Assembly: GCF_000730285.1 (NCBI RefSeq)
Contig: NZ_CP007174.1
Location: forward strand, 1,240,001 to 1,304,000
Length of the DNA stretch: 64,000 nucleotides
Origin: Candidatus Nitrososphaera evergladensis SR1
Lineage (GTDB): Archaea > Thermoproteota > Nitrososphaeria > Nitrososphaerales > Nitrososphaeraceae
Direction: 5' to 3'
A model generated the notes under the pieces. It searched no databases. It was not told where the DNA came from and was given only the letters and a program-made list of their open reading frames with translations. The first letter of the stretch is position 1, and the number at the start of each line of letters is the position of its first letter. Shown here piece by piece: positions 47,566-55,183 of this stretch. A program made the translations under genes and the position numbers.

Positions 47566-48052
47566 CTTTGCTAAAACACGCAAGCCGTGTGCCATGTACA
47601 TGTGCGCGTTTCCAGTGGACTACAAATACAAGCGTAGTTGTAGTAGGTTTTAGTTCTTTTATGGTTGAGGCTTAATTATGCGGAAAGGTGTTGCAAATAT
47701 TCTTCTTTTGATTGCACGTCCTGCCTTTTGAGAGTCCAAAAAACATCCACAAAAAACATGCTCCTTTCTTGCATGTCAATGATCTTTGAGCAGCAAAAAA
47801 GTAATCATGGGTCCATGCGGCGGAGCCATGAGGCTTGGCACTCAAATATTGCAAATTATTGGCTCAATTGTTTGATTAATTGTTCAACCCGGCTTGCATG
47901 GATTACACGGCTAACCATTTCTTCCACAAATGTCGAGTGAAAACCTTAGTCATTGCAAGATCTATTGAAAACCAATTATCCCAGACTCTGTTTAAAAATT
48001 CTCAAGTTACTCTTCTCAACGCTTTAAAACATTGGCCGCAAGATTACGCGAG
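47566..48052. other. Gene-poor region
   Basis: 487 nt with no convincing reading frame. It has lower GC than the genes around and scattered short AT runs. TTTAAAACATTGG at 48020-48033 is the promoter of the glycine-rich gene. Possibly relics of a gene on either strand, but I recognise nothing. Confidence 0.4.
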
Positions 48053-48460
48053 ATGTCGAATAGCATCATCAAAAACAAAGTGGCATTCCTATCACTGCTG
48101 ATAGTGGGTGTCGCAATAGCATCATACACCCTTGGCACGCCTGCCAGCGCGTTTGCCGCCGGAGACGGTGGGAACGGTGGTAATGGCGGCAATGGTGGAA
48201 ATGGCGGCGATAGCCATGGTTCCGGCAATGCCGGCGATGGAGGAAACGGTGGAAACGGCGGTAATGGCGGCGATGCCGTTGGCGCTGGAAACGGCGGGAA
48301 CGGTGGCGACGGAGGAAACGGTGGAAATGGCGGCGATAGTTTCGGTTCAGGCGATGCAGGCAACGGCGGTAATGGCGGCAATGGCGGGAACGGTGGCGAC
48401 GGAGGCAGCAGCGACGACGAAGACGAGGACAACTGGAATTACGACGACTGCGGCTGCTGA
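48053..48460 (+). CDS. Exported glycine/asparagine-rich repeat protein
   Basis: About 135 residues. A signal peptide (about 1-33, [24 protein letters not shown]) is followed by about 85 residues of GGNGGNGGN repeats punctuated by [11 protein letters not shown] and AVGAGN. The C-terminus is acidic and ends [15 protein letters not shown]. No tertiary domain is predicted; Gly-Gly-Asn tripeptides suggest an extended polyglycine-II-like or silk/collagen-like structure. The acidic Cys-ending tail could bind metal or attach covalently. ATG at 48053 is 27 nt from TTTAAAA. Confidence 0.65.
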
Positions 48461-48726: not shown

Positions 48727-49143
48727 ATGCAAGATTCAGAACTTCTTATCGCAAGCACTTTCAAAGTCCTGGGGGACAAAATGGCGTGCAATCTTTTGGT
48801 GGCATCTGCAAGCGATACCGGCGTTCATCCTATAGCCGCAATGAAAAAGATGGCATTGACAAGAAAGCAGTTCTATTCAAGACTGGCCCGCCTCAAAAAA
48901 CTGAAACTGATCAAAAAGATGGGGGAAAACTACGTTCCTACCTTGCAAGGGCTGCTCGTGGTTAACAACCTTCTCCCGATGATGAGGGAAATAATAGAGA
49001 GCAGGTGGAAAATAGACTCTATAGACAAGTTGATGACAGACAAAGAATTTACGAATAGCCATGTGGAAGAAATAATAGATACACTATTGCGCGGGTCTGC
49101 TCTTAGAAAAGAGGTGCTCAGCATTCTGCAAAAGGCCGAGTAG
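48727..49143 (+). CDS. Winged-helix regulator (ArsR/TrmB-like)
   Basis: A 138-residue regulator from MQDSELLIAS. Helix-turn-helix: VHPIAAMKKMALTRKQFYSRLARLKKLKLIKKMGENYVPT. The C-terminus is helical (MREIIESRWKIDSIDKLMTDKEF...VEEIIDTLL). It is paralogous to the first third of the 332-residue protein downstream (both have LTRKQ(F/Y)YSRL...KLIKK), so the two regulators are related. A TATA-like TTAAAAATTGG about 27 nt before the ATG supports this start rather than the ATG at 48613. Confidence 0.78.
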   Translation: MQDSELLIASTFKVLGDKMACNLLVASASDTGVHPIAAMKKMALTRKQFYSRLARLKKLKLIKKMGENYVPTLQGLLVVNNLLPMMREIIESRWKIDSIDKLMTDKEFTNSHVEEIIDTLLRGSALRKEVLSILQKAE

Positions 49144-49185: not shown

Positions 49186-50184
49186 ATGCCAATTTCCCAT
49201 AGCAAATTTGCTAATCCAGATTCTTATAGGAACCCGAGGCTCAGCAAGCAAATAAGGAAAATCTTGGCAGACGACATTGCAGTCCGACTTCTTTACATGG
49301 CACACGAAGGGTTTCTCGCAAAGAACTTTGCATACAAGAGCATGGGCATAACGAGAAAGCAATATTACTCGCGCCTAAAGCCGCTGATCAAGCTGCAGTT
49401 CATTGAAAAGGTAGCCAGCAGCGACACCGGCCGCCGGAACAAAAGCATGTACGTGGCCACGACTCTTGGCAAGATGATCTTTCGAACCCAGGTAAGGATG
49501 ATAGAAGAGCTGTCAGAGAACATTGAAAACGTCAACCTGATCGAAAGAATCAAGACAGACTACCAGCACATCGGAAACGACAAAATCGCCAAGATCTCTA
49601 CAATCCTTCTGGACAACACGAGCGTCCTGCGAGACGTCTTTGCGAGCATGGGCAACAAACACGACCTTGACGTCCTTTCCGATTATGAAACAGCCATCTC
49701 CACTTCGTGCGACCTGATTTCCAAAGCCAAGTCCCGGGTGCTAGTCGCGTCAAGGTACGTGCATCCTGACGCGGTAAAGGAGATGGTGCGCGCCGCAAGC
49801 TACAACAACATCGAGGTTCGCTCGATAATCGAGCAATCCATACTTGCAAAGAGGATTGCAGACTTGAAGGTGGACAGCGAGGAAAAGCTGAATGCAAACG
49901 CCCAGTTGCTATTTCCTGCCATTACATCCGGCATAAAGTACCGCTACTCTGAAGTCTATTACACGTTCTTGGTCGTGGACAACCTTGTTTCAATCATCGA
50001 GGTCCTGAGCCCCTTTGACCAGCAGTTCCTGCTTGCGCTCAAGTTCAATTCCAGAGCAATCAGCGAACGGCTCGGCGCAATATTTGAGTCCATGTGGAAG
50101 CGGTCTATGATGCCCTATGAATCAGCTGCCAGCTACCTCTCTTCTTCTTCCCATGCTCCTTCTTCCATCATAAAAAGGAACTAG
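49186..50184 (+). CDS. Winged-helix regulator with C-terminal PLD-like sensor module
   Basis: A 332-residue regulator. The winged helix (about 28-115) has MGITRKQYYSRLKPLIKLQFIEKV and a wing MYVATTLGKMIF. A linker helix leads to a sensor (about 160-315): DYETAISTSCDLISKAKSRVLVASRYVHPDAV...IEVRSIIEQ and a final IFESMWKRSM. That module resembles the C-terminal sensor of TrmB-type regulators and the modules of the histidine kinase at 20023-22272. It probably binds a small ligand. It sits directly upstream of the UbiA cluster. Confidence 0.8.
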   Translation: MPISHSKFANPDSYRNPRLSKQIRKILADDIAVRLLYMAHEGFLAKNFAYKSMGITRKQYYSRLKPLIKLQFIEKVASSDTGRRNKSMYVATTLGKMIFRTQVRMIEELSENIENVNLIERIKTDYQHIGNDKIAKISTILLDNTSVLRDVFASMGNKHDLDVLSDYETAISTSCDLISKAKSRVLVASRYVHPDAVKEMVRAASYNNIEVRSIIEQSILAKRIADLKVDSEEKLNANAQLLFPAITSGIKYRYSEVYYTFLVVDNLVSIIEVLSPFDQQFLLALKFNSRAISERLGAIFESMWKRSMMPYESAASYLSSSSHAPSSIIKRN

Positions 50185-50186
50185 CT

Positions 50187-50213
50187 GCCCCAAAAAGGGG
50201 CGCTCTCTTTTTG
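50187..50213 (+). terminator. GC hairpin with T-run after the sensor-regulator gene
   Basis: GCCCC-AAAAA-GGGGC (50187-50201) forms a perfect 5-bp stem, followed by CTCTCTTTTTG. It closes the transcript at 50184 and separates it from UbiA1. Confidence 0.65.
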
Positions 50214-50265: not shown

Positions 50266-51234
50266 ATGACGCTTGCAGGAGAGTGCAACACGCATACTAC
50301 TAACAAGCTAACCCTTAAGCAAGGGCTTCTCCTTCTCCATTCAAAGAAGCAGCCGCTTGGGTACGCCACCGCCGGCGCCGTGACGTACATGTTTTCTTCA
50401 ATCCTGGCAGGCTCGTTTTCTCCGTTTCTGAATGCGCTGGTTTTTGGCGTGCTCTATGCCATGTATTCTGCAATTTACCTCTATAACGACATCGTTGATC
50501 TGAATATTGACAAAATCAATTCAAAGGACAGACTAGTTGCTTCCGGCAAGACAACGCCAAGACAGGCAAAAAAGATGGTGGGATTTCTTTTCGTCATAGC
50601 CGCGCTTTTGACTTTTCTTGCCAGCAGCTACTTTGGCCCCGCCAGAGGGCTACAAAACTACCTGACAATATCAGTTACAGTCTCGGCCTCCGTGTTTCTG
50701 GGCATAATCTATTCGCACCCGCGAATATACCTGAAGAAAAGATTTCCCTTCAAGTCTGTATCTATAGCGTCAGGCGCGGGCCTGGCAAGTTTGGTCGGAT
50801 GGGCCATTTCAAGCACGGACTTTACTCCATCGACGCTGCTGTCCGCATTATCGACATCGGCGGTTATCTTTGTAATGTCAATACTGTTCGACTTGAGGGA
50901 CCTGAAAGGGGACAGGCTTCACAACGTCGGGACCTTCCCAATCGTGCTGGGCGTGGATGCAAGCCGCAAGATGATGTACTGCAATCTGGCAGTTCCAGTG
51001 CTTGCAGCCATAATAACTGCAACGCTGCTTGGGGAGCGCGTTGGGCCAATAACTCTGGGCATCCTAGCCGCAGTAAGCGTAATTGGGATCAAAGCGCTGT
51101 CACGATTGGGGAGCAACGGCCTTGAGGACAAAAAGACCTTCTTAAATAGCGTGGTTACAATGAGGAGGTTGTACTATCTCACTCAATTGGGGATGGGCTC
51201 GCTGGCAATAGGCAACATGACGACACTTCACTAG
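50266..51234 (+). CDS. UbiA-family prenyltransferase 1
   Basis: A 322-residue membrane protein with about nine predicted helices. Prenyl-diphosphate motif 1 is LYNDIVDLNIDKINSKDR (N74, D75, D78, D82; NDxxDxxxD), and motif 2 is FDLRDLKGDR (D212, D216). UbiA enzymes attach polyprenyl chains to aromatic rings, glycerol ethers (DGGGP synthase) or heme. The acceptor is not determined. Context with a second UbiA, PrpD and cupin suggests a dedicated pathway. Confidence 0.85.
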   Translation: MTLAGECNTHTTNKLTLKQGLLLLHSKKQPLGYATAGAVTYMFSSILAGSFSPFLNALVFGVLYAMYSAIYLYNDIVDLNIDKINSKDRLVASGKTTPRQAKKMVGFLFVIAALLTFLASSYFGPARGLQNYLTISVTVSASVFLGIIYSHPRIYLKKRFPFKSVSIASGAGLASLVGWAISSTDFTPSTLLSALSTSAVIFVMSILFDLRDLKGDRLHNVGTFPIVLGVDASRKMMYCNLAVPVLAAIITATLLGERVGPITLGILAAVSVIGIKALSRLGSNGLEDKKTFLNSVVTMRRLYYLTQLGMGSLAIGNMTTLH

Positions 51235-51474
51235 GGACAAAAATTGCTATTGTTGCTGCTGTGGCATCGAATTATCATATACGCGTGGTGGGGCAGCAAC
51301 AGAAGAGGAATGGTAATTTGTCAAATGGCGTTGAAAACAAAAAAATATTTTCTGATGCTGCTGTTTACTGGCGTTGCATCTCTAGTTATCTTTAATCGGA
51401 TCAGACCGTTCTTTTGGCACGTTCTTTAGGGTTATTTACGCTGTACATCATATAAAAAGAAGCAGACACCTGAA
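51235..51474. other. Intergenic region before the winged-helix gene
   Basis: 240 nt. A short hydrophobic frame exists here but has weak coding character. ACATCATATAAAAAGAAG at 51446-51463 is the promoter of the next gene. Confidence 0.4.
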
Positions 51475-51921
51475 TTGTTCCTAGACGGCTCTGCATTGTT
51501 TGCATATCCGGAACCAGACCTAAGTTTTGAACGGTTTCGAGGAAGCGTCATTATTTTTCAAAAGTATCTGGCGCAGAGTAATTATGCAGATTCTGAATTC
51601 TCCTTGGCAAGTATTACTTTTATTGTTGTTTCATTTGGAGGCAACACGTTGACTACTGCGACTAGTATTACCTATTTTTCACGCGTTGCCGCTGTATTGG
51701 CAAATGAAAACAGGATGGGAATAACTAACTTGGCCATGGCCGCCCGGATGAACCACAAGAGATGTCTGTCTATCGTCCTGCTGATGGAAAGGTGTGGCTA
51801 TGTGAGGCTGGTAAGCGATGGGAGGAAAAAAGAAGTGATCGTGACCGAAAGAGGACTGGACTATTTCAAGCAATTCGTGTCGCTTGTACTTCCGATAACA
51901 TCTATTATAGTTACGCGCTAA
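51475..51921 (+). CDS. Winged-helix regulator
   Basis: A 148-residue frame with a TTG start. The conserved portion is FSRVAAVLANENRMGITNLAMAARMNHKRCLSIVLLMERCGYVRLVSDGRKKEVIVTERGLDYFKQF (about 67-135), a clear winged helix. The N-terminal part is atypical and may be untranslated, in which case translation could begin internally. CATATAAAAAG about 23-25 nt before the TTG supports the start. It lies between the two UbiA genes. Confidence 0.6.
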   Translation: MFLDGSALFAYPEPDLSFERFRGSVIIFQKYLAQSNYADSEFSLASITFIVVSFGGNTLTTATSITYFSRVAAVLANENRMGITNLAMAARMNHKRCLSIVLLMERCGYVRLVSDGRKKEVIVTERGLDYFKQFVSLVLPITSIIVTR

Positions 51922-52001
51922 CCTGTGCTCCTTACATGCTTACTTTTCGTACGTACAGCTTGTAAGCCAAAGTTATAAGAAAAAATTTCATCAACACTGC
52001 A

Positions 52002-53006
52002 GTGCATTCTTCCTCTTATCCGGAGCTTGGCAGAAAACAGCAACGACAAGAAGAGAACAGAAACGCAAGTGCGAATAATGTCTCTTTTCTACGTTCCCAG
52101 CTAATTCTTTTTCAGTCACGGCAGAAATGGGGGTTGGTTTACTCTCTTGCGACGGTGGTGGGCTTGTTCTGCTTGCCCGGCGCATTGGGTGTTTTTGGAC
52201 AGCAACAACAAACCTTGCCGATTCTTGACGTGGTGCAAAAAAGTGCGCCGCTTCCCTTCATTTCGCTTTTGATAACCATCGGCATGTATGTTCTCAATGA
52301 CCTTGCTGATTCAGATCTCGACAAGGCCAATGGGAAAAAGAGGCCGATACCTTCTGGGCTGGTCTCAAAGAGGCAGGCCCTGGAATTTGTCATGATGACC
52401 AACGGGATTGCCGTCATCCTTTCTCTGGTCACGCTAAACGTCGTTACAATGGTGATGGTCGTACCAATGCTGGTCATTGGCATCCTCTACTCTTCCCGCA
52501 AGGCGGCATTTGAGAACAAGTTTGTCGTCAAGAACGTGTCAATCGCGGTTTTTTACATGCTCTGCGCGCTGCTTGGGATGACCTCGGGCTATACCCTGGG
52601 TCTTGCTGTCGACAATCCGTTTGTGGCGATTCGTGCCGCTGCGGCTCTTGGGATCATGGTCTTTATCTCCTCGATTTTGAATGACCTTGGAGACATTGAA
52701 GGAGACAGGCAAGCAGGGAGGCGGACAATACCGATTGTCATGGGCGAACAGGGCACGATAAAGATGGCAATCGCGCTGGCGGCAGGCCTGTTTGCGATAT
52801 CGTGGCTCACGTACTGGCTGAGTGGAGGTTCAGGGCTGGTTACGGCCGTACTGACGACCTTGTTCTCGGCACTGATAGGAGCGAGGATCGCAAACTTACG
52901 CAAGGGCGTCAATGACGTTGATTTCCTGCGTCGCCAGCACAAGAATTTCGTTCCTCTCCACTTTTTGCTGCAACTCTTTCTGTTTGGAGGAGGTGCGCTG
53001 TTTTAA
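52002..53006 (+). CDS. UbiA-family prenyltransferase 2
   Basis: A 334-residue membrane protein. Motif 1 is NDLADSDLDKANGKKRPIPSG (D100, D103, D107), motif 2 LNDLGDIEGDRQAGRRTIPIVMG. Predicted nine helices. The motif layout and KRPIPSG follow archaeal UbiA enzymes (DGGGP synthase and relatives). Only weakly similar to UbiA1 outside motifs. Start GTG at 52002. Its stop TAA overlaps the PrpD ATG by one nt (TAATG), so the two are translationally coupled. Confidence 0.85.
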   Translation: MHSSSYPELGRKQQRQEENRNASANNVSFLRSQLILFQSRQKWGLVYSLATVVGLFCLPGALGVFGQQQQTLPILDVVQKSAPLPFISLLITIGMYVLNDLADSDLDKANGKKRPIPSGLVSKRQALEFVMMTNGIAVILSLVTLNVVTMVMVVPMLVIGILYSSRKAAFENKFVVKNVSIAVFYMLCALLGMTSGYTLGLAVDNPFVAIRAAAALGIMVFISSILNDLGDIEGDRQAGRRTIPIVMGEQGTIKMAIALAAGLFAISWLTYWLSGGSGLVTAVLTTLFSALIGARIANLRKGVNDVDFLRRQHKNFVPLHFLLQLFLFGGGALF

Positions 53007-54355
53007 TGATGATGATGGTAGATAATACGCTAGAAAAAGAAGACGACAACGTTGCTTTCAAGCTTGCAGGCATTGTTGTCGACGACATAAGATTCGGCAA
53101 ATTGCCTGCGGAAGTGGTGAGCAAAGCAGAGCTGTTTCTGCTCAACGGCCTTGGGTGTTTGGTTGCAGGAAGGGCGACTGAAATAGGGAGAGGGATAAAT
53201 TTCGACGAATCGCTGACTGGCAAGGAAAAGCGCTGGGTAGAAACCGTCAAGCCCACGCCTGAACAATACAAGATGTACCGCGACGCTTCAGGGACATTTT
53301 CAACAGAACTTACGACGGTGTGCCTTGCGGGAATCAACCACCCGGATTCCGTGGTAGTCCCGGTCCTGTTGAACATGGGCCAGAAAGAGAGCAGCAGGGA
53401 AGCCATCGTTGAAGCCCTGGTGGCAGGAACAGAAGTCATGGCCAAGATAGGCATACTTTTGAATCCGTCATTGTATTACAAGGGCTGGCATTCCACGGGC
53501 GTATGCGGCATTTTCGGAGCTGCGGCAGTCGCCTGCAAACTGCTGCAGAAAACAAAAGAAGAGACAGCCAATGCGTTTCAACTGGCTGCCGGCCTGGCAA
53601 GCTCTGATTTTTACAGGCTGGACAAGAAATACCCCGTAATAAAAGTAGCAAATCCCGGAATTGCCTCTGTAGCAGGAGTATCTGCAGCTACGCAAGAGCA
53701 GCAGAAGAATTGCGGTGCGGAATTGAAAAGAACAAGCGTTGATGATTTTGTGGGCACGTTCAGAGACGGCAACAACAATTCTCAGAGCATAGACTGGACA
53801 AGATACGACATCTTGGAGCTCTTTTTCAAGTCGATGCCGGTTGTTTGCGCCTTCCATGCGATTCTGGAACCGTTGCATGACCTGCTTGCTAAAAACCAGA
53901 TAGATGCCGCCGACATTGCCAAGATCAAGGTTGGCTATCATAAAATACCAAGCGATTATTATTCTGGCCATACTGCACGCTCCGTATATGGGGCACAGAC
54001 CAGCCTGCCTTATTCAGTCGCAATACTTGCAAAGACGCATCATGCAGGCATCGAGACGTTTACTAAAGATGTCTTGAAAGACAAGGACGTCCAGCGGATT
54101 GCCGATTCCGTCGAGATAGTTCCAAGCGAGCGGAAAGGAACAGACGACTTGATTGCAGGAGAAATTGAGCTGGTACTGGCAGGTGGCGAGAAATACAGCG
54201 GCAAAGTGGACAAGGCTCTAGGCTGCAGTCCCAAAGATGTTCCTGCCAAATTTTTCCAGCTGGCAAGATTTGGCGGATTAAATGAGGAGGCAGCAAGACG
54301 CGTTTATCGCAAAATCGCGGACAAAGAGTATGACTTGGAGGATTTGAGAATATAA
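53006..54355 (+). CDS. MmgE/PrpD-family protein
   Basis: A 449-residue cytosolic protein of the MmgE/PrpD fold. NGLGCLVAGRATEIGRG, HPDSVVVPVLLNMG, YKGWHSTGVCGIFGAAAVACKLLQKTKEE (active-site region with His), VKPF-type segment replaced by KVANPGIAS, MPVVCAFHAILEP and SVYGAQTSLPYSVAI. The family contains 2-methylcitrate dehydratase and cis-aconitate decarboxylase, which act on small tricarboxylates. In this cluster the substrate may be different. It starts ATGATGATGATG with several Met, so the exact start is uncertain. Confidence 0.85.
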   Translation: MMMMVDNTLEKEDDNVAFKLAGIVVDDIRFGKLPAEVVSKAELFLLNGLGCLVAGRATEIGRGINFDESLTGKEKRWVETVKPTPEQYKMYRDASGTFSTELTTVCLAGINHPDSVVVPVLLNMGQKESSREAIVEALVAGTEVMAKIGILLNPSLYYKGWHSTGVCGIFGAAAVACKLLQKTKEETANAFQLAAGLASSDFYRLDKKYPVIKVANPGIASVAGVSAATQEQQKNCGAELKRTSVDDFVGTFRDGNNNSQSIDWTRYDILELFFKSMPVVCAFHAILEPLHDLLAKNQIDAADIAKIKVGYHKIPSDYYSGHTARSVYGAQTSLPYSVAILAKTHHAGIETFTKDVLKDKDVQRIADSVEIVPSERKGTDDLIAGEIELVLAGGEKYSGKVDKALGCSPKDVPAKFFQLARFGGLNEEAARRVYRKIADKEYDLEDLRI

Positions 54356-54356
54356 A

Positions 54357-54866
54357 ATGATTAGAGCTCCAGAAATAACGGCATTAAGAGAAGAAGAAGA
54401 GCAACGCAGTGCGCGAAAATACATCTTCAAGCCGTCAATCCGGCCTGCCTCTGAGCTCAAAGGGCACAAAGACGGTCAGGGAACAAGATATGTGTTTGTG
54501 GATAGCAAGCTGGTGCCTGCCGCAAACTTTTACACTATTGTACGGGTCGTCAAGAATGTTAAAGAAGACAAGATTAGCCACGTAGACATTCACAAGCATG
54601 ATTGCGACAGTGCTTTCATCTTTCTTGGCGATTCGCCCAATTTTGAAGGGTTGACCTGCGAGGTGATGCTGGATGATGAAACATTTACGGTTCAAAGCCC
54701 TGCAACGGTGTACATTCCTGCTGGGGTGATGCACACATACAGGTTCATCAGCGGATCCGGGATGTACTGGAACATTGTTTTGTCCGGCGACTATAACTCG
54801 AGGACTATGCTGCAGCAGCAATCCATCCCGTTTGCTGCTGGGCGGAAGGAGATTATTCAGCCCTAG
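54357..54866 (+). CDS. Cupin-domain protein
   Basis: A 169-residue cupin. The barrel begins ISHVDIHKHDCDSAFIFLGD (metal His pair) and the second motif is SPATVYIPAGVMHTYRFISGSGMYWNIVLSGD (final His). It starts 1 nt after the PrpD stop and probably belongs to the same transcript. Cupins act as isomerases, decarboxylases or dioxygenases; without residue tests the reaction is open. End overlaps the convergent zinc-ribbon membrane protein by four nt. Confidence 0.78.
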   Translation: MIRAPEITALREEEEQRSARKYIFKPSIRPASELKGHKDGQGTRYVFVDSKLVPAANFYTIVRVVKNVKEDKISHVDIHKHDCDSAFIFLGDSPNFEGLTCEVMLDDETFTVQSPATVYIPAGVMHTYRFISGSGMYWNIVLSGDYNSRTMLQQQSIPFAAGRKEIIQP

Positions 54867-55183
54867 AATCCCGCCTTTTTCATCTTGGATCCGCAGTTTG
54901 GGCACGACACCTTGTTGTGCTTGGTGCCGCAGTTTATGCAGTAATAGTGGACGCCGCCCTCATTCTTTTGGTCAAAGGGGTTTCTAAACAGCGAGCCCTG
55001 CTGCCGTCCAATCTGCTTCATAAAGCGGTATCTGCGGTAGTACGCAATGCCAAAGATGACTGGCAGTAGCACCATGAGCGAGTATGGAAAGTCGATGAAC
55101 ATGGTGATTACGATGCTTATTGCAAAGTAGATTCCAAGCCAGAGGATCTGCTGGTACAGGAACCGCTTTGCGCTTGCGTCCAT
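54863..55183 (-). CDS. Membrane protein with C-terminal zinc ribbon
   Basis: A 106-residue protein. Two TM segments (about 12-52: ILWLGIYFAISIVITMF and FPYSLMVLLPVIFGIAYY) are followed by a basic stretch and a zinc ribbon (CINCGTKHNKVSCPNC; CxxC...CxxC). It may be a small membrane-associated regulator or assembly factor. No name. Confidence 0.65.
   Translation of the reverse strand: MDASAKRFLYQQILWLGIYFAISIVITMFIDFPYSLMVLLPVIFGIAYYRRYRFMKQIGRQQGSLFRNPFDQKNEGGVHYYCINCGTKHNKVSCPNCGSKMKKAGF

Follow-up and report, generated by a model that had tools for sequence, protein, structure and literature searches.

An accessory UbiA prenyltransferase locus with dedicated regulators and neighbouring PrpD-fold and cupin genes in Candidatus Nitrososphaera evergladensis

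Introduction

In ammonia-oxidising archaea, the enzyme that forms the second lipid ether bond has not been identified, and the roles of extra UbiA proteins are a standing question. No orthologue of DGGGP synthase has been identified in Thaumarchaeota (PMC6431249; PMC4244643). We describe here a locus of Candidatus Nitrososphaera evergladensis SR1 that contains two such UbiA genes. The described systems closest to its components are the UbiA superfamily prenyltransferases (DGGGP synthase 6m31, 4od4, chlorophyll synthase 9sau), the MmgE/PrpD-fold enzymes IRG1/cis-aconitate decarboxylase and iminodisuccinate epimerase, the regulators TrmB and TrmBL2, and the cupin domains fused to homocitrate/2-isopropylmalate-synthase-like proteins (P. 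aeruginosa PA1217-type, Nocardiopsis, Brevibacillus). The literature searched yielded no function for these synthase-cupin fusions and no paper describing the locus, and the main text of the Ca. N. evergladensis genome paper mentions neither prenyltransferase nor PrpD. An original prediction, made from the sequence, proposed that UbiA, PrpD and cupin act in a shared pathway under the control of upstream regulators.

Results

Organization of the locus

The window, i.e., the whole stretch of 64,000 nucleotides that was analysed, corresponds to positions 1240001-1304000 of a single-contig 2.954-Mb genome. Coordinates are those of the window unless given as genome positions, and statements on the genome itself are based on targeted searches. 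At the 5' side of the block lie two forward-strand genes that encode regulators, as predicted, and are of wHTH type: HTHa (48727..49143), a small winged-helix protein with a weak Pfam HTH_45 match, and HTHb (49186..50184), a TrmB-like protein with weak DUF7436/PLDc_2 matches. A terminator-like hairpin with a T tract (50186..50202, forward strand), a candidate from a pattern scan that does not in itself speak for a function, lies 3' of HTHb. There follow, all on the forward strand and all intact, the genes for UbiA1 (50266..51234), a winged-helix protein with weak Pfam winged-helix matches and an uncertain start codon (wHTH; 51475..51921), UbiA2 (52002..53006), PrpD (53006..54355) and a single-domain cupin (54357..54866). 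A zinc-ribbon gene on the minus strand (54863-55183) converges on the cupin gene, the two stop codons overlapping.

The stop codon of UbiA2 holds the PrpD start (TAATG). The overlap on which the predicted coupling rests is present, but with four tandem ATGs at this place translation of PrpD may really begin as much as 9 nt further downstream. After a gap of 1 nt the cupin gene begins, also as predicted. Shine-Dalgarno-like sites are located within the upstream genes, GGAGGAGGTG ahead of PrpD and TTGGAGG ahead of the cupin, and a TATA-like TTATAAG read off the sequence (51973..51979, forward strand), about 22 nt 5' of the UbiA2 GTG, suggests that UbiA2 has its own promoter. Given the overlapping stop and start, the 1-nt gap, the internal Shine-Dalgarno sites and the TATA-like box, UbiA2, PrpD and cupin likely form a single operon. 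The likely transcription units, as judged from the sequence, are HTHa-HTHb, UbiA1, wHTH and UbiA2-PrpD-cupin, and we consider co-expression to be probable.

UbiA1 and UbiA2 belong to an accessory superclade

Both predicted prenyltransferases were assigned by Pfam (E 4e-32 and 6e-32; 112 and 111 bits against a curated cut-off of 34.2), and they share with the described superfamily members the fold, the length and the two Asp-rich metal motifs. The latter read NDIVDLNID (NDxxDxxxD) and DLRDLKGD (DxxDxxxD) in UbiA1, and NDLADSDLD and NDLGDIEGD in UbiA2, in agreement with the prediction that two UbiA genes with intact metal motifs flank a winged-helix gene. Unlike DGGGP synthase and chlorophyll synthase, however, UbiA1 and UbiA2 fall in a superclade of their own, are linked to dedicated regulators and, at this locus but at no other, have PrpD and cupin beside them. 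A tree of 54 UbiA proteins recovered this accessory superclade (99/97), which contained UbiA1 with a gene at 1089 kb of the genome, and UbiA2 with a gene at 737 kb and its orthologues. UbiA1 formed a long branch, sister to the 1089-kb type, and its exact placement is unsure. UbiA2 was nested among Nitrososphaeraceae sequences and is therefore a second copy of a native type. The genome has seven UbiA genes. Two exceed the heme-o-synthase cut-offs, a third resembles MenA without reaching the cut-off, and the remaining four belong to neither group.

Dedicated regulators accompany the superclade

In relatives, the genes commonly present on the flanks of UbiA2-like genes are a TrmB-like one (~300 aa) and a small wHTH gene (~131 aa); the latter is kin to HTHa, as is HTHb. 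A relative of HTHa or HTHb was found within 1.5 kb in 26 of the 29 loci recovered with UbiA2, a set that includes a few repeat views of one gene; the remaining three are situated at contig ends. A Pfam UbiA survey found regulator-family genes at 3/3 superclade loci and 0/27 other loci, and none was found at the three UbiA genes of other type in the genome itself, i.e., 0/30 other UbiA loci in total. Regulator control of UbiA is thereby supported far more strongly than when it was originally proposed. The HTHb profile detected six clear members in the genome, a pair at every one of its three accessory UbiA loci; among these six, the one at genome position 1088759 is a short, weaker match, and two further, still weaker matches cover the HTH part only. 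The HTHa-HTHb pair of the window adjoins UbiA1 and not UbiA2 directly. The link is strong without being absolute, since a few regulator-family members in a relative's genome (G056) are located away from UbiA.

The structural model of HTHb is of moderate confidence (pTM 0.53), and its best PDB fold matches are TrmBL2, at the top, and TrmB, with which it shares a wHTH and a PLD-like C-terminal effector domain. It differs from both in its low sequence similarity to them and in adjoining UbiA genes rather than sugar-transport genes. The wHTH gene at 51475 had only distant relatives, in three genomes of the family, and was rejected as a member of the HTHa/HTHb family. A search for a common operator motif upstream of UbiA genes found none. 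The regulator-UbiA linkage offers a handle on the signals to which these prenyltransferases respond.

PrpD has an IRG1-like fold and a changed pocket

PrpD carries the MmgE/PrpD N- and C-terminal domains (Pfam PF03972 and PF19305; E 8e-23 and 4e-14), and no curated NCBIfam family model matched it. A structural comparison with MmgE and cis-aconitate decarboxylase had been proposed at the outset; a fold search with the AlphaFold model (pTM 0.89) gave IRG1/cis-aconitate decarboxylase and iminodisuccinate epimerase as the nearest solved structures, those of MmgE and PrpD ranking behind them. The likeness is one of fold (TM about 0.74-0.79), whereas identity to these two enzymes is ~17-19% and a UbiA gene as neighbour sets our enzyme apart. 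The residues named for bsIRG1, i.e., D91, H102, Y146, H151, K200, K266 and C271 (PMC7347537), correspond to E101, H112, Y157, H162, K213, K275 and V280, so that six of the seven positions are kept or conservative. C271 is changed and the adjacent Asp pair is lost, DFDD becoming ELTT; the alignment shows the second of these two Asp residues to be near-invariant. A PrpD devoid of catalytic residues was considered and dropped, as this mapping shows most of them kept, with the second Asp pair lost. From the alignment and the model, PrpD is best regarded as a member of the family whose pocket has changed, judged from the ELTT and V280 substitutions, and not as a methylcitrate dehydratase.

The cupin and its neighbourhoods

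By Pfam alone the cupin assignment is weak (Cupin_2, E 0.028), and its identity was confirmed by relatives, across which the HxH...H metal residues H79, H81 and H126 are invariant in the alignment; a Ser takes the place of the Glu that is usual in motif 1. Most closely related to it, with 43-50% identity and the same HxHxCDS motif and ends, are domains at the C terminus of homocitrate/isopropylmalate-synthase-like proteins, encoded in Nocardiopsis, in Brevibacillus and on a plasmid of P. aeruginosa. Our cupin, in contrast, stands alone and is paired with PrpD rather than with a synthase domain. The fused forms (loci L072, L149 and L150, in Pseudomonas aeruginosa, Nocardiopsis and Brevibacillus) reside in clusters of biosynthetic-type genes, e.g., NRPS, dioxygenase and ThiF-like. 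The subfamily is rare.

Two further neighbourhoods bear on the locus. A betaproteobacterial MAG carries a cupin gene (30% identity) directly 3' of a PrpD gene, in a cluster of tricarboxylate-transport type that lacks UbiA. In marine Nitrosopumilaceae, all nine loci read (L073-L080, L082) show a 29-37%-identical cupin gene divergent to a UbiA-fold gene of ~227 aa, a relative of which matches Pfam UbiA (E 7e-10), and a UbiE-like methyltransferase gene adjoins in five of the nine. The Asp motifs of this short UbiA-like neighbour are degenerate and not of the canonical form, so the parallel with our locus may not be a chemical one. The nine cases probably stem from one event, and cupin-UbiA adjacency would then represent approximately two independent events.

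The block is a species-specific insertion

The genomes of two relatives, G083 and G056, share the outer neighbours of the block: genes for an acyl-CoA dehydrogenase and a MaoC-like protein border it on one side and a Dpo4-like gene on the other, where G083 also keeps the zinc-ribbon gene. The block itself is missing from the syntenic site in both. DNA identity to G083 resumes at position 54862, right where the cupin gene ends, and GC3 is 0.46-0.65 in the block as against 0.68-0.73 in flanking genes. The block is an accessory, species-specific insertion, and the locus was probably assembled recently. At its left edge lie a dispersed repeat of ~65 bp (47595-47665) with many matching places in G083, and a glycine-rich repeat gene region (47810-48405) with relatives elsewhere in that genome.

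PrpD-fold matches were obtained in only 13 of 201 genomes of the order. The 12 besides our own show ~22-32% identity and belong to families other than Nitrososphaeraceae, and none of the 51 other genomes of the family in this sample has PrpD. The cupin is likewise absent from every one of the 69 other family genomes searched for it. Pattern scans of genome and viral contigs found no close PrpD relative, the cupin had no match in a phage collection, and neither cupin nor UbiA2 was found in viral contigs. Among the genomes searched, the full UbiA-PrpD-cupin set is confined to this one, a result that goes against a conserved pathway and that the original prediction had itself named as a refutation. 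A conserved synteny of the three was rejected on these grounds, the block being missing in relatives. What survives of the predicted grouping is pairwise, cupin with UbiA in Nitrosopumilaceae and PrpD with cupin in the one betaproteobacterium.

Discussion

The explanation that we favour, with its chances evenly balanced, is that a regulated accessory UbiA module took up the polycarboxylate-processing enzymes PrpD and cupin. The base would be the lineage-specific Nitrososphaeraceae module: a prenyltransferase with intact metal motifs, accompanied by a single dedicated winged-helix regulator or by two, including a TrmB-like one whose sensor domain is of the PLD type. The genome of this species would have received a further copy of the module, with two UbiA genes, next to the zinc-ribbon gene, and the PrpD-fold enzyme and cupin would have joined behind UbiA2 in one operon. 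The substrate of PrpD would be a small di- or tricarboxylate, which its His/Lys/Tyr set would isomerise, decarboxylate or dehydrate. The metal cupin would handle the same kind of acid, and UbiA2 would move a prenyl group from a diphosphate onto the resulting acceptor or another hydrophobic one, the regulators turning the block on in response to a ligand. In favour of this explanation are the operon-type spacing, the absence of the block at the syntenic site in relatives and its lower GC3, the regulator linkage of the superclade, the fold and residues of PrpD, and the recurrence of the cupin subfamily in synthase fusions, beside a PrpD and beside a UbiA-fold gene. Against it count the single observation of the complete set, the alteration of the PrpD pocket at a near-invariant Asp, the lack of canonical motifs in the UbiA-like neighbour of the Nitrosopumilaceae cupin and the regulator-family members of G056 that are not next to UbiA. 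That UbiA, PrpD and cupin work in one joint pathway is about an even prospect, with a prenylated small molecule as a possible product. If functional, the addition of PrpD and cupin would bring UbiA chemistry to acceptors not known before. A bolder version, which we regard as rather unlikely, is a ligand-controlled archaeal pathway in which UbiA prenylates a small (poly)carboxylic acid or a cupin-modified product to give a new class of isoprenoid-acid conjugates, with cupin/UbiA-like/UbiE-like methyltransferase variants in marine ammonia oxidisers.

Alternatively, the genes may be neighbours by chance, a variable insertion site having gathered another UbiA-regulator module and, independently of it, a PrpD-cupin pair of bacterial type for small-acid catabolism, with perhaps a common transcript but no common pathway. 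This is a real possibility, if one we would not bet on. The species-specificity of PrpD and cupin is in its favour, as are the occupation of the insertion site by other genes in relatives, the UbiA2 orthologues elsewhere, which lack PrpD and cupin, and the betaproteobacterial pair without UbiA. The tight UbiA2/PrpD overlap and the independent recurrence of cupin-UbiA adjacency in Nitrosopumilaceae speak against it. Chance alone is made less attractive by the UbiA-regulator link together with the recurring cupin-UbiA and cupin-PrpD neighbours.

Uptake of PrpD and cupin by a UbiA module also has to be weighed against a role of the UbiA proteins in making a membrane lipid or quinone, e.g., as the DGGGP synthase still sought for the second ether bond or as an enzyme that prenylates quinones, with PrpD and cupin only tuning precursor supply. 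DGGGP synthase and chlorophyll synthase are indeed among the closest PDB and NCBIfam models, some of these UbiA genes have a UbiE-like methyltransferase nearby, and the gap left by DGGGP synthase in Thaumarchaeota (PMC6431249; PMC4244643) invites such a role. All NCBIfam subfamily scores were far below cut-off, however, with 55 and 82 bits against 296 for the DGGGP synthase equivalog models, and we consider this reading improbable. Within the family the superclade has a patchy distribution, and no g2 genome yielded it, so that it cannot provide an essential lipid step there; on account of this distribution UbiA2 was rejected as a general answer to the missing enzyme. Every genome surveyed has two heme-o-synthase-like and one MenA-like UbiA (L157-L184; genome positions 1391928, 2584491 and 1631679 in our own), and the complete Nitrosopumilaceae genome G102 has only those. 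The missing DGGGP synthase, if a UbiA protein, is probably one of the three. With the three types found in all surveyed genomes now separated from the accessory, regulator-linked superclade, the question of the second ether bond and that of the extra UbiA roles become testable.

That PrpD belongs to a methylcitrate cycle with its remaining genes elsewhere, an outcome the original prediction had allowed for, has next to no probability and was ruled out: a PEP-mutase/methylisocitrate-lyase-like (PrpB-like) protein is encoded at genome positions 1452079-1452807 on the minus strand, but it scores below all NCBIfam cut-offs (277 vs 354 bits for methylisocitrate lyase), PrpD lacks an NCBIfam match and is nearer in fold to IRG1 and iminodisuccinate epimerase than to PrpD or MmgE, and the other Nitrososphaera genomes sampled are without it. 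Finally, in four Nitrososphaera genomes (L083, L088, L089, L092), an alpha/beta hydrolase gene and a UbiE-like methyltransferase gene lie beside an HTHb-UbiA-HTHa triad.
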